Source of the DNA: Bacteroidaceae bacterium | GTDB taxonomy: Bacteria; Bacteroidota; Bacteroidia; Bacteroidales; Bacteroidaceae | Assembly: GCA_017617635.1 (NCBI GenBank) | Contig: JAFZVW010000002.1 | Span: 1 to 56,299 of the forward strand | DNA length: 56,299 nucleotides | Reading direction: 5' to 3' | Shown here: piece by piece, positions 27,507 through 56,177 of the stretch | Layout: every line of letters starts with the position of its first letter | How positions within the stretch are numbered: the stretch's first letter is position 1 | The notes under the pieces: model-generated | What the model was told of the DNA's origin: nothing | What the model saw: only the letters and a program-made list of their open reading frames with translations | Databases searched by the model: none | Made by a program: the position numbers and the translations under genes

Positions 27507-27615
27507 GGTAACAAATGTTACCTGTAGGGAAGGACACGAAACGGCGTACGGACAGCCTCGAAACGGCGTATCAAAGGCCACGAGACGGCGTATCGGGAAT
27601 GGCCAAACGACGTAG
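27484..27615. repeat. Degenerate array of six 22-bp units
   Basis: AGGTAACA occurs at 27484 and 27506. CGAAACGGCGTA occurs at 27537 and 27559, CGAGACGGCGTA at 27581, and CCAAACGACGTA at 27603. Every step within these runs is exactly 22 bases. The first two units share one motif and the last four another, so the sequence drifts while the period is held. There are no regular CRISPR-like spacers. Confidence 0.75.
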
Positions 27616-27676
27616 AGAAAATTAAAAGATTAAAAAATTAAAAAGTTAAACCATTAAACTATTAAACAACTATGAG

Positions 27677-51491: not shown

Positions 51492-51579
51492 TGCAGTCTC
51501 CACGCATTAATCAATCATTCAGGGACACTATTTGGAGACGTAGTCTAAGATAAACCACGTTAAGTCAAATTTGTGCTAT

Positions 51580-54033
51580 ATGAAACAGTATTTACTCCAG
51601 CGTTTTTTTTGCTTGCAAAGAGTCTTGCTATTTGTGCTCTTTGCGCAATTATTCTCCCTCACAATAACAGCAACAGAAGTCATTGTAGATGGTATTAAGT
51701 ATGATGCCGTTAAAAAAGCGAAACAAGCAACCGTTATTGCCAATAATTCTAATTACTCTGGCAACATCGTTATTCCCTCGTCCTTCACATATGACAATGT
51801 GGAATATAGTGTTACTGCTATCGGTGCATCTGCTTTCTATGCTTGCAAAGGTTTGACTTCAATAAACATCCCTAACAGCGTGACCAGCATTGGAGAAAGT
51901 GCTTTCGATTATTGCAACGGCCTGACATCAATAACCATCCCCAACAGCGTGACCAGCATTGGAGAATCGGCTTTCCATGGTTGTAGCGGCCTGACAAAAG
52001 CTGAATTTGCCAGCATAGAGAGTTTGTGTAAGATGTCATTTGGAGGTTATTCTGCAAATCCGTTATATTCTGCTAAGCATCTTTACATTAACGGTCAGGA
52101 AATAATTGACCTTGTTATTCCCAATAATGTGACTAGCATTGGAGCATCTGCTTTCTCTGGTTGCAGCGGCTTGTTATCAGTGACCATTCCCAACAGCGTG
52201 ACCAGCATTGGAGCCTTAGCTTTCTATGATTGCGATGCTTTAACGAAAGCAGAATTCGCCAGCATAGAGAGCTTGTGTAGAATAGCATTTTATGATGTGG
52301 TCTCAAATCCTTTATCATATGCTAGCCATCTTTACATTAATGGTCATGAAATAACTGACCTTGTTATTCCCAATAATGTGACCAGCATTGGAGCATCTGT
52401 TTTCTCTGGTTGCAGCAGTCTGACATCTGTAACCATTCCCAACAGCGTGACATGTATTGGTAAAAGTGCTTTCTGGGCTTGCCGTAGTCTGACATCGGTG
52501 AACATTCCAAGCAGTGTGACAAGTATTGGTGAACGTGCTTTTTATTATTGCAGCGGCCTGGAGTCAGTAACCATTCCCAACAGCGTGACAAGTATTGGAG
52601 GTTATGCTTTCTATTGTTGCAGCAGCCTTACGTCTGTAACCATTCCCAGCAGTGTTACAATCGTTGAAGACTGTTCTTTCTATGGTTGCAGCAGTCTGAA
52701 ATCCGTGACCATTGGCAATAGTGTGACCAGTATTGGAGATAAAGCTTTTGCAAATTGTGAAGAACTTATGGATGTATATTGTCTTGCAAAGAAAGCTCCT
52801 ACGGCTGCAACCACTGCTTTCGATGGATCCTATCCAAATTATATTACGTTGCATGTAATCGCATCCGTTATAGAGGACTATAAAGCGAAATCTCCGTGGA
52901 GCAGTTTTGGTACATTTATGGCAATATCAGGAGATGACCCAAGTCCAAAGATTCAATTTGCTGATGCTGCAGTAAAGGCTATCTGTGTTGACAATTGGGA
53001 CATAAACAGCGATGGCGAGTTGTCTGAGGCAGAGGCAGCAGAAGTGCAATATATTGGAACTAGATTTAAAGGAAATAGCAAGATAACATCATTCAATGAA
53101 CTGCAGTACTTCACAGGACTGACCAGTATTGGAGACAATACCTTCTATAATTGCAGTAGCCTAACATCAGTCACTATTCCTAACAGTGTGACAAGCATTG
53201 AGAGGCTTGCTTTCTCTGGTTGCAATAGCCTAACATCTGTCACTATTCCCAACAGTGTGACAACTATTAGCGGTAGTGCTTTCTGGAGTTGCTCTGGCTT
53301 GACATCAGTAACCATCCCCAACAGCGTGACCAGCATTGAAGCAGGGGCTTTCGCTGGTTGTGGCAATCTGACAACAATCAAGGTTGTAGATGATAATCCG
53401 CAATATGATTCTAGAGATAATAGTAACGCAATTATAGAAACATCAACAAATACTTTGATTTGTGGCTGTAAGAACACAGCTATTCCCAATAGTGTAACAA
53501 GCATTGGAAAAGCTGCTTTCGACAGTTGTAGTGGCCTGACATCTGTGATTATACCAAACAATGTGACAAGCGTTGGAAAGGGTGCATTCTATGATTGCTG
53601 TGATCTGACATCAGTTACCATTCCCAAAAGTGTAACAAGCATTGAAGGGTATGCTTTCACGTTTTGCAGTAGCCTGACATCAGTAACATGTTTAGCAGAG
53701 CAGATGCCAACTACAGAAATATCTGCTTTCAACGGTTCCAATACAGCAGGTGCTACATTGCATGTGCCAGAATCAGCAATTGAAGACTATAGAACAACTG
53801 CACCGTGGAGCAGTTTCGGTATAATTCTACCAATTGACGAACCAGAATACCTAGTAGGCGATTCCAACGGAAATGGTGAGGTGGAAATAGGTGACGTGAC
53901 ATCAGTATTGACACTGATGGCTACGCCGGACGCTACCGGTTACAACAACAAAGCTGCCGACGCAAATAAGAGCGGCGATATCGAGATTGGTGACATTACA
54001 ACCATACTGACGATAATGGCCGGGGGAGAGTAA
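51580..54033 (+). CDS. BspA-like leucine-rich-repeat surface protein with dockerin-like C-terminus
   Basis: The ATG at 51580 (MKQYLLQRFFCLQRVLLFVL) gives a signal peptide of about 34 residues; an upstream in-frame TTG is rejected. More than a dozen BspA-type repeats of about 23 residues follow, with the consensus SVTIPNSVTSIGxxAFxGCS. About midway an EF-hand-like insertion, DINSDGELSEAEA, interrupts the repeats. Two partial modules contain LHVxxxxIEDYxxxxPWSSFG. The C-terminal 60 residues are a pair of dockerin-like repeats (GDSNGNGEVEIGD, then ADANKSGDIEIGD). BspA proteins bind fibronectin, fibrinogen or other bacteria in oral Bacteroidales; the ligand here is unknown. The repeats make this gene prone to recombination. 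Confidence 0.9.
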   Translation: MKQYLLQRFFCLQRVLLFVLFAQLFSLTITATEVIVDGIKYDAVKKAKQATVIANNSNYSGNIVIPSSFTYDNVEYSVTAIGASAFYACKGLTSINIPNSVTSIGESAFDYCNGLTSITIPNSVTSIGESAFHGCSGLTKAEFASIESLCKMSFGGYSANPLYSAKHLYINGQEIIDLVIPNNVTSIGASAFSGCSGLLSVTIPNSVTSIGALAFYDCDALTKAEFASIESLCRIAFYDVVSNPLSYASHLYINGHEITDLVIPNNVTSIGASVFSGCSSLTSVTIPNSVTCIGKSAFWACRSLTSVNIPSSVTSIGERAFYYCSGLESVTIPNSVTSIGGYAFYCCSSLTSVTIPSSVTIVEDCSFYGCSSLKSVTIGNSVTSIGDKAFANCEELMDVYCLAKKAPTAATTAFDGSYPNYITLHVIASVIEDYKAKSPWSSFGTFMAISGDDPSPKIQFADAAVKAICVDNWDINSDGELSEAEAAEVQYIGTRFKGNSKITSFNELQYFTGLTSIGDNTFYNCSSLTSVTIPNSVTSIERLAFSGCNSLTSVTIPNSVTTISGSAFWSCSGLTSVTIPNSVTSIEAGAFAGCGNLTTIKVVDDNPQYDSRDNSNAIIETSTNTLICGCKNTAIPNSVTSIGKAAFDSCSGLTSVIIPNNVTSVGKGAFYDCCDLTSVTIPKSVTSIEGYAFTFCSSLTSVTCLAEQMPTTEISAFNGSNTAGATLHVPESAIEDYRTTAPWSSFGIILPIDEPEYLVGDSNGNGEVEIGDVTSVLTLMATPDATGYNNKAADANKSGDIEIGDITTILTIMAGGE

Positions 54034-54133: not shown

Positions 54134-54397
54134 ATGAAGAACAAGAACAACAACGGGAAGCAGCAAGTGCGGAGGTTCCGCGAGGCTGTTGACGGGCCGG
54201 TCATCATGCGGCTGTATGCTACAATGCCGACGGCGGAACTGGCCGCTATGCTGGGACTGACGGTGAAGCAGATAGAAAACTATGCGTATCGGCATAACAC
54301 GACGCCTTGGGCGCATAAGTCGGCGGCGGTGCGGTCGGCAGAGAACAGCCAGAAGGGGAAAAAAGGAGGTGGACGACCAAGAAAAGTAAAAAAATAA
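54134..54397 (+). CDS. Small DNA-binding-type protein (HTH plus AT-hook-like tail)
   Basis: The 87-residue basic protein has a helix-turn-helix-like core, LYATMPTAELAAMLGLTVKQ followed by IENYAYRHNT, resembling homeodomain-like or resolvase-type HTHs. A Lys/Gly-rich end, GKKGGGRPRKVKK, contains the GRP core of an AT-hook. No catalytic domain is present. It lies between a terminator and the 22-bp repeat array, 212 bases upstream of the HU-family gene, so it may be part of the same unit. I know similar unassigned genes in Bacteroides and Prevotella accessory regions but not their function. Confidence 0.65.
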   Translation: MKNKNNNGKQQVRRFREAVDGPVIMRLYATMPTAELAAMLGLTVKQIENYAYRHNTTPWAHKSAAVRSAENSQKGKKGGGRPRKVKK

Positions 54398-54455
54398 AAA
54401 ACTAACACTTTTTTTATTCAGCAACTTGTTTGTTCCTTTGCAGCGTGAATCAAAA

Positions 54456-54587
54456 AGACGACCACGGTCGATTGAGTAAAAGTTGCGCGTCAGTTGATGA
54501 AAAGTTGCGCAATTTATGGGCAAAAGTTGCGCGTCGATTGAATAAAAGTTGCGCGTCAGTTCGGAAAGAATTGCGCGTCAGTTAATA
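54456..54587. repeat. Array of six 22-bp units upstream of the HU-family gene
   Basis: The unit AAAAGTTGCGCGTCAGTT plus four variable bases starts at 54478, 54500, 54522, 54544 and 54566, each step exactly 22 bases. A degenerate sixth unit at 54456 keeps the tail GTCGATTGA in register with the unit at 54522. The array ends 22 bases before the HU gene start. With a period not divisible by three it cannot be coding. Twenty-two bases is close to two helical turns, so all units face the same side of the DNA. Confidence 0.85.
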
Positions 54588-54609
54588 ATAACACCAAAAA
54601 CCAAAGAAA

Positions 54610-55194
54610 ATGAGTACATTAAAACTGAAAGTGTCAAGGGCGAGCAATGTGAACCCGAAGACGAAACAGAAGGGCTTTACTGCCCGAGTGTTAACTAATG
54701 GTACTGCCGATTTCGACGACATCGTGAAGGAGGCCGGCCACAACACCACCATGCACAAGGCAGAGTTGCGTATGGCCTTCGAGCTGTGCATGGACTCGGT
54801 GACCGAGATGCTGAAGCAGGGCTACATCGTGGACCTTGGACCTATCGGCAAGATCTATCCGAGCTGTTCGAGCGGCTGGTACGAGAAGGAGGAGGACATG
54901 AAGCTGAGCGACGTGAAGCCACAGCTGTACTACCGTGCCGGCGACGAGGTCGAGGCCGCCGTCAAGTCTGCCAAGCTCGTGTGGGCGAAAGCCAGCGACG
55001 AGGATGAAGAGGAAGGCGGAACCACGGAACCAGGGAACGGCGAAACTCCTGATCCAGAGAACCCCAACACCGGCGGCGAGACGCCCGATCCCGAGAATCC
55101 CGGCGGTGATCCTTCGACAGGAGGCTCAGGAGACGGTGATGACGACAATGGCGGTAATGGTGGCGGCGGCAACCCAGGCAGCGACATGGACTGA
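54610..55194 (+). CDS. HU-family DNA-binding protein with Gly/Asp-rich tail (HU-HIG type)
   Basis: Residues 1-125 match the divergent Bacteroidota HU/IHF-like domain: STLKLKVSRASNVNPKTKQK, a helix TMHKAELRMAFELCMDSVTE and the arm region IVDLGPIGKIYPSCSSG. Residues about 130-194 are a low-complexity tail rich in Gly, Asp, Glu, Pro and Asn (TPDPENPNTGGETPDPENPG and similar). HU domains fused to a wHTH, Ig or Gly-rich segment are the HU-HIG group. The gene follows the 22-bp array by 22 bases, so the array is a natural candidate binding site for this protein or for a regulator of its gene. Codons are GC-rich compared with the BspA-like gene. A perfect terminator follows. Confidence 0.85.
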   Translation: MSTLKLKVSRASNVNPKTKQKGFTARVLTNGTADFDDIVKEAGHNTTMHKAELRMAFELCMDSVTEMLKQGYIVDLGPIGKIYPSCSSGWYEKEEDMKLSDVKPQLYYRAGDEVEAAVKSAKLVWAKASDEDEEEGGTTEPGNGETPDPENPNTGGETPDPENPGGDPSTGGSGDGDDDNGGNGGGGNPGSDMD

Positions 55195-55232
55195 GCAGAT
55201 TTTCCAATCTGGGAGTATCTATTTACCAAATG

Positions 55233-55259
55233 GGAACGGATGGTTGTCCGTTCCTTTTT
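55233..55259 (+). terminator. Rho-independent terminator of the HU-family gene
   Basis: GGAACGGA (55233-55240) pairs perfectly with TCCGTTCC (55247-55254) around a 6-base loop, followed by TTTTT. Confidence 0.9.
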
Positions 55260-55274
55260 GTTGTCATACCTTTG
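55244..55274 (+). promoter_or_regulatory. Promoter of pdxS
   Basis: TTG (55244-55246) and TACCTTTG (55267-55274) are 20 bases apart; the ATG is 30 bases further. The -33 element lies inside the preceding terminator hairpin. Confidence 0.6.
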
Positions 55275-55304
55275 TGCTGCACAAACCCTAAACAGTAAAC
55301 AAAA

Positions 55305-56177
55305 ATGGAAGACAGGACTACGCTTAACCGCCAGTTGGCTCAGATGCTGAAGGGCGGAGTGATTATGGACGTGACGACACCCGAGCAGGCACGCATTGCC
55401 GAGGCTGCCGGTGCATGTGCAGTAATGGCATTGGAACGCATACCGGCTGACATCCGCGCTGCAGGAGGTGTGAGCCGTATGAGCGACCCGAAGATGATAA
55501 AGGGCATACAGCAGGCCGTGACTATCCCCGTGATGGCTAAGTGCCGTATCGGTCATTTTGCCGAGGCACAGATTCTGGAAGCCATCGAGATTGACTACAT
55601 CGACGAGAGCGAGGTGCTTTCGCCTGCGGATGACATCTACCACATCGACAAGCGCAAGTTCCGTGTGCCTTTCGTCTGCGGAGCAAAGGACCTGGGCGAG
55701 GCGCTGCGCCGCATCAGCGAGGGTGCCACGATGATTCGTACCAAGGGCGAACCGGGCACGGGCGACATCATACAGGCCGTCCGCCACATGCGCATGATGC
55801 AGAGCGAAATCCGCCGTCTTGTAGGCATGGCCGAAGATGAACTTTACGAGGCAGCCAAGCAGTTGCGTGTGCCGTTTGACTTGGTTCAGTTTGTTCACGA
55901 GAACGGCAAGCTGCCTGTGGTGAACTTCGCTGCCGGAGGTGTGGCTACGCCTGCCGATGCAGCCCTGATGATGCAGCTGGGTGCGGAAGGTGTGTTCGTG
56001 GGCAGCGGCATCTTCAAGAGCGGTAACCCCGAGAAGCGTGCGCAGGCCATCGTCAAGGCCGTAACGAACTACAACAACCCGGCCATACTTGCCGAACTGA
56101 GCGAGGATCTGGGCGAAGCTATGGTGGGTATCAATGAGAGCGAGATAGAGTTGCTGATGGCAGAGCGGGGGAAGTGA
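55305..56177 (+). CDS. pdxS: Pyridoxal 5'-phosphate synthase, lyase subunit
   Basis: PdxS builds pyridoxal phosphate from ribose 5-phosphate, glyceraldehyde 3-phosphate and ammonia delivered by PdxT. The 290-residue TIM barrel has the catalytic Asp D22 in [11 protein letters not shown], the Schiff-base lysine K79 in VMAKCRIGH and the second lysine K147 in [13 protein letters not shown]. The closing [20 protein letters not shown] binds phosphate. Length is normal. pdxT follows. Confidence 0.98.

Follow-up and report, generated by a model that had tools for sequence, protein, structure and literature searches.

In the window, by which we mean the whole 56,299-nucleotide stretch of Bacteroidaceae DNA analyzed here, a tandem array of six units lies between a small HTH gene and a gene for an HU-family protein, which is followed by pdxS (Table 1). 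The HU protein matches the HU-HIG family model PF18291 at 54.4 bits, above the Pfam gathering cutoff of 26.2, and scores 36.7 bits against TIGR01201 (HU_rel), below the NCBIfam cutoff of 68.6. The extension that marks an HU-HIG protein (wHTH, Ig, or Gly-rich) is present as a Gly/Asp-rich tail, as judged by eye in the orthologue alignment; models of wHTH tails matched neither this protein nor its 11 orthologues. Profile searches returned no PDB relatives at an E value of 0.01, the HU domain had no match in phages or among 72,556 plasmids at 1e-5, and an AlphaFold2 model was discarded as unusable (mean pLDDT, 42.3). The HTH protein has a weak match to sigma-70 region 4 (E value, 0.0071) that falls short of the cutoff. 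Directly upstream of the HTH gene, positions 51571 to 54033 encode a BspA-type leucine-rich-repeat protein of 820 amino acids, which also matches dockerin (PF00404) at 24.6 bits (cutoff, 22.9). A 322-amino-acid open reading frame on the minus strand (54930 to 55898), opposite the HU tail and pdxS, is probably spurious.

Table 1. Features of the array locus, with positions counted from the first base of the window
Feature	Position	Strand	Basis
Small HTH protein with AT-hook-like tail (our reading), 87 amino acids; possible accessory	54134..54397	+	Weak sigma-70 region 4 match
Promoter-like box TTCCTTTG, resembling the -7 box of Bacteroidota	54433..54440	+	Sequence; Bacteroidota consensus
Unit 0, degenerate; dyad of sister-lineage type centered at 54464.5	54456..54477	+	Sequence comparison, register
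Unit 1, dyad centered at 54486.5	54478..54499	+	
Unit 2, dyad centered at 54508.5	54500..54521	+	
Unit 3, dyad centered at 54530.5	54522..54543	+	
Unit 4, dyad centered at 54552.5	54544..54565	+	
Unit 5, dyad centered at 54574.5	54566..54587	+	
Spacer from array to start codon, 22 bases	54588..54609	+	
HU-HIG protein, 194 amino acids: HU domain and Gly/Asp-rich tail	54610..55194	+	PF18291, orthologue alignment

An earlier, sequence-only reading of this DNA had described six units at an exact 22-bp period ending 22 bases before the HU start codon. The array, its period, and its place all stand: lag-22 identity across positions 54456 to 54587 is 69/110 (0.627), whereas in 2,000 shuffles of the same segment no lag between 10 and 44 gave more than 0.477, and exactly 22 bases (54588 to 54609) separate the array from the ATG at 54610. 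Among 110-bp windows scanned at all lags from 10 to 60, the array has the top score in the 56 kb; in Tandem Repeats Finder, longer-period repeats (69 to 249 bp) of the neighboring leucine-rich-repeat gene outscore it. What that reading overlooked is that the units are dyads and that their sequences are lineage specific. Every unit is an imperfect, roughly mirror-symmetric dyad; counted from the center, position 8 is an A and position 5 a G in 9 of the 12 half-sites. The degenerate first unit, CGACCACGGTCGATT, matches the unit type of several sister lineages in exact register. Its CGACCACGGTC-type sequence, shared with several relatives, and its preserved register suggest that the unit sequence has turned over in the window lineage and that a single old unit survives on the promoter side. 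A second lag-22 stretch of the window (27524 to 27633; 53/88 identity) holds about three copies of AAGGCCACGAAACGGCGTATCA; it lies in a region without an open reading frame of 80 amino acids and is not clearly palindromic.

We take the TTCCTTTG sequence at 54433 to 54440 to be a -7-like box of Bacteroidota, which would make it part of a predicted promoter. Of 45 HU-HIG arrays, 22 have the motif TnnnTTTG immediately on their 5' side (shuffle mean, 3.5; maximum, 10), made up of 11 of the 12 clade loci (the window and 10 of its 11 orthologues) and 11 of 33 other HU-HIG arrays. It was not found in L045, where the array comes directly after the upstream gene. The window has dyads spaced at 22 bp between a promoter-like box and a start codon, an arrangement that, together with specific binding of the array by the encoded HU-HIG protein, would define a proposed HU-HIG dyad-array group.

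Our orthologue scan recovered 11 loci, all from metagenome-assembled genomes labeled Prevotella, Prevotellaceae, Bacteroidaceae, or Bacteroidales. Under the sequence-only reading, 22-bp periodicity should be overrepresented in front of homologous HU genes. We looked for such an excess, whose absence would have refuted that reading, and found it, beginning with these orthologues, all 11 of which carry an array upstream of the HU start. With the window counted, all 12 loci have their best windowed period at 22 or 44. When the best four units of each locus are compared, the majority base is A at half-site position 8 and G at position 5 (A8 and G5), and the dyad center falls between bases, in all 12. 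The unit sequences themselves vary from orthologue to orthologue. On the protein side, the first 127 residues are highly conserved and the tails are not; the HU domains of the clade are nearly identical, yet the inner half-site bases differ.

The excess also holds in the wider family. We examined 80 family regions around PF18291 matches, which were picked by hand from the best-scoring lists and are not a random sample. In 68 of these regions, 70 HU-HIG open reading frames were called, 58 with at least 90 bp of upstream sequence and 57 with at least 120 bp. At a threshold of at least 65% identity (thresholds vary among our array tests), arrays were present upstream of 17 of the 58 genes, with periods of 21 (4 genes), 22 (11 genes), and 23 (2 genes), and 41 genes had no array. 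Control genes more than 700 bp from an HU gene in the same regions had arrays at any period in 13/263 cases and at periods 21 to 23 in 6/263 (Fisher P = 1.2e-9 against 17/58). An initial control count of 28/434 was inflated because genes divergent from an HU gene share its array; the final control therefore drops genes within 700 bp of an HU gene and regions in which no HU was called.

The same spacing emerges when palindromes are followed. Upstream of the 57 HU-HIG genes, palindrome centers recur at 11, 22, 33, and 44 bp. Direct autocorrelation there has peaks at 22 and 44 and a weak one at 66. Among 375 other genes, there is no palindrome peak at 22, and the direct peaks at 21 and 22 are weaker. 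Dyads spaced by 22 exceeded the shuffle maximum in 29 of 81 HU-HIG upstream regions, the 12 of the clade included, compared with at most 8/81 for each of the other spacings between 15 and 30; the limit is the maximum over one shuffle for each of the 81 regions. For other families of the order, 40 regions were likewise hand-picked from best-scoring lists, and 35 HU open reading frames were used. A direct array was found at period 22 in 7/35 and at none of the other periods from 16 to 30, and dyads rose above all shuffles in five cases at a spacing of 22 and in one case each at 18, 19, and 29. Searching for the pattern of the window core hit 14/151 genomes, against 19/151 for the reversed control, which by itself is uninformative on the motif; we used this search only as a source of examples, and it turned up 22-bp arrays of other sequence in several genomes. 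PF18291 matches numbered up to 29 in one genome.

Arrays are not confined to the upstream regions of HU genes. Within the window's own 2.05-Mb genome, the AAAAGTTGCGC pair occurs at this locus only, at up to three mismatches. A second array, with no fewer than seven dyads of the clade type, lies between two facing genes on another contig of the same genome; it carries the sister-lineage unit, and no HU was called in the surrounding 14-kb stretch. A clear array precedes two of the six PF18291 matches of this genome: the window gene and a paralogue on contig C1, which has its own, different 22-bp array. A weak stretch precedes the match on contig C27. Many dispersed 22-bp arrays are present in G128 (L185 to L193), mostly of the TTAGGTGCGCTCCTAG type and one of the TAGATGCGCATCTA type, and no HU-HIG was called in the nine array stretches fetched from that genome. 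In seven array loci, no Rfam family reached its gathering score.

Many array-bearing HU-HIG proteins are about 200 residues long and have a tail that we call winged-helix-like, a term that reflects our reading of the sequences and the description of PF18291; in one of these proteins, P0001, Pfam names no winged-helix domain. With a tail model built from array-negative proteins only and the window clade left out, arrays accompany 23 of 38 tailed proteins and 10 of 66 untailed ones (P = 2.8e-6). When the 12 array-bearing loci of the window clade are added, the counts become 23/38 and 22/78 (P = 0.001). In the 23 arrays of tailed proteins, C is the majority base at position 3 in 16 and A at position 4 in 14. 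Some tailed HU-HIG arrays (L140, L141, L143, and L113) have a period of 21 rather than 22.

The palindrome of P0001, TCCACACGnnCGTGTGGA, forms 22-bp arrays at five further places in its genome (control, 0), with no HU called around the three whose surroundings were examined. In G180, another palindrome forms arrays at four further places, none with an HU called (control, 0). G051 has one further dyad pair 22 bp apart, with hits of 8 and 7 against 1 and 3 in the control. Across 40 genomes from the genus of G041, the P0001 palindrome has 26 to 41 hits in four genomes and at most 4 in the other 36, with both strands counted. The protein itself reaches 68% identity or more in exactly these four genomes (100, 92, 80, and 68%; next, at most 54%), and all four have some of the hits directly upstream of the protein's gene. 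For independent genomes, this coincidence would arise by chance once in 91,390; the genomes here are not independent, and the four may form one clade. Among subfamily homologues, 21 of 30 have arrays (18 at period 22 and 3 at 21), and half-site similarity tracks protein similarity (Mantel r = 0.71 to 0.74; P = 0.0002; n = 21). The HU domain and the tail perform equally well in this comparison, so shared descent may lie behind the correlation. Across 23 unrelated proteins, coevolution of half-site and tail was not significant (Mantel r = 0.09; P = 0.12).

We favor, with a probability of roughly 60%, the interpretation that the array is a tandem DNA operator for the HU-HIG protein, used for autoregulation and matched by arrays elsewhere, a proposal drawn from comparison of sequences. 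Each 22-bp dyad would hold one dimer of the HU-HIG protein whose gene follows the array, and the spacing of about two helical turns would bring neighboring dimers to the same side of the helix, so that they bind next to one another. Because the array is placed after the promoter-like box, proteins bound to it would obstruct the promoter or early elongation and so produce autorepression. Arrays of the same dyad elsewhere in the genome might give the protein further targets in trans, making it a sequence-addressed nucleoid protein. Where a winged-helix-like tail is present, it may read the outer half-site and the HU domain set the geometry; in the window clade, the reading may fall to the HU domain or to a partner. 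Binding by the HU protein and autoregulation gain indirect support from the promoter-like box beside the arrays and from the co-occurrence of P0001 with its palindrome. Weighing against the proposal are the missing tail in the window protein and its orthologues, their nearly identical HU domains alongside differing inner half-sites, and the 41 of 58 HU-HIG genes without an array at the threshold used. As the window HU has no winged-helix-like tail, the identity of its reader is the least certain part of the proposal.

Other explanations account for parts of these data. Dispersed minisatellite or MITE-like repeats, similar to BrickBuilt, could have settled by chance before HU genes without any cognate protein, and many arrays do lie away from HU genes, the nine array stretches of G128 have no HU called, and short inverted repeats end some arrays (by eye). 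Chance settling is nonetheless hard to square with the enrichment at HU-HIG genes, the position after a promoter-like box, the dyad bases common to 12/12 loci, and the co-occurrence of a protein with its palindrome, and we consider it unlikely. Slightly less probable is an element acting at the RNA level, in which tandem hairpins in the 5' leader would control translation or stability of the HU mRNA. The window array lies within the presumed leader and, taken alone, leans slightly to an RNA fold: its dyads have four GT and no AC mismatches, and its sense strand folds better than the antisense strand (-23.8 versus -14.2 kcal/mol). The group of the 29 strongest dyad arrays does not, with 55 GT and 76 AC mismatches and sense folds no stabler than antisense (P = 0.29), so that neither mismatch asymmetry nor folding supports a hairpin reading for the group; moreover, like arrays are found between facing genes as well as between co-oriented genes.

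The binder might also be the small HTH/AT-hook protein or another regulator, with HU-HIG merely the regulated gene. E. coli-type HU is classically nonspecific, and the HTH gene is adjacent to the HU locus in 9 of 12 clade loci; the protein itself was matched in 9/12 clade genomes (that of the window and 8 of 11 relatives), in G157 only in pieces. The sequence-only reading had named this protein as a possible array binder, a suggestion now weakened, since it has no match in three of the 12 clade genomes (G309, G311, and G312), all with the HU and the array, and none in the 80 family regions (L082 to L161) or the 35 further loci outside the clade. Its absence from the examined regions outside the clade leads us to reject it as a general binder and as the factor that these arrays have in common. 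Within the genus, eight more genomes, examined for the HTH protein and the array, have neither that protein nor a CGACCACGGT-type array. We rate an HTH or other non-HU binder as a shade more doubtful than RNA hairpins. Iterons of a replication origin or an integrated plasmid, which as 22-bp direct repeats with two-turn spacing would look much like plasmid iterons, are highly improbable: the HU gene is followed by pdxS, no Rep is among the four proteins scanned at the locus (LRR/dockerin, HTH, HU-HIG, and PdxS), and the plasmid search described above gave no match to the HU domain.

If the array is an operator for the HU-HIG protein, a broader but more tentative picture can be drawn, which we advance with less confidence than the operator itself. 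Each of the many HU-HIG paralogues in Bacteroidales genomes might have a private 22-bp dyad code, with one array serving feedback at its own gene and a few matching arrays elsewhere, so that the paralogues would form a mutually orthogonal, fast-diversifying nucleoid-addressing set derived from the HU fold. The standard example of a nonspecific DNA packer is E. coli-type HU, and IHF is the sequence-specific exception in the HU fold. Private dyad codes would set the paralogues apart from IHF, whose sites are all of a single type. Here, place, geometry, and, for one protein, co-occurrence tie a large HU-derived family to specific dyad arrays. The lineage-expanded HU-HIG proteins would thereby gain a testable function, with a simple bench assay for each, and the pairs are candidate orthogonal protein-operator pairs in Bacteroidales.

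Several known systems resemble parts of this arrangement. IHF shares with the proposed reader a sequence-specific HU fold; its sites are single and asymmetric, and we know of no 22-bp dyad array before its own gene. REP/BIME elements of E. coli, with IHF or gyrase, are likewise dispersed intergenic palindromes linked to HU/IHF-fold proteins, and to our knowledge no cognate array stands before the protein's own gene. Plasmid iterons and ParB/parS-type arrays are tandem phased sites for an adjacently encoded protein, but they involve other protein families, and the window has no adjacent Rep among the proteins scanned. The HU-HIG family paper is reportedly that of Burroughs et al. from 2017. In the open-licence literature, we found no account of cis arrays for this family and, in titles and the starts of abstracts, no description of 22-bp arrays before HU genes. 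The HU protein PG0121 of Porphyromonas gingivalis is another HU from the order that has been examined together with inverted-repeat DNA, in that case at an operon's 5' end; it differs in being E. coli-like and in concerning one large 77-bp inverted repeat at the capsule locus (PMC3969353).

In the portion of the literature accessible to us, the nearest described repeat to the window array is BrickBuilt of P. gingivalis, a minisatellite/MITE family of 23-nucleotide repeats with leader and tail (PMC4596501). Like the arrays described here, BrickBuilt elements are intergenic tandem arrays of short units dispersed in a Bacteroidales genome. BrickBuilt_14 adjoins a PF00216 DNA-binding gene (Table 1 of PMC4596501), and DNA/RNA-binding genes are mentioned among the neighbors of the family; the available part of that source mentions neither HU-linked nor dyad spacing. 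In contrast to BrickBuilt, whose 23-nucleotide unit recurs many times in its genome, the window array has a period of exactly 22 and its AAAAGTTGCGC pair is restricted to a single locus. BrickBuilt has a leader and tail with terminal inverted repeats; the one observation bearing on this in the window is that no inverted repeats were listed between positions 53800 and 55400. Arrays of the present kind may help to explain the dispersed 22- to 23-bp minisatellites of Bacteroidales genomes.

Dispersed arrays of about four dyads with short outer inverted repeats, identified by eye, occur several times over in L180, L270, and L278 to L282. In L010 and L011, two or three unit types adjoin one another, and in L011 they share the same register.
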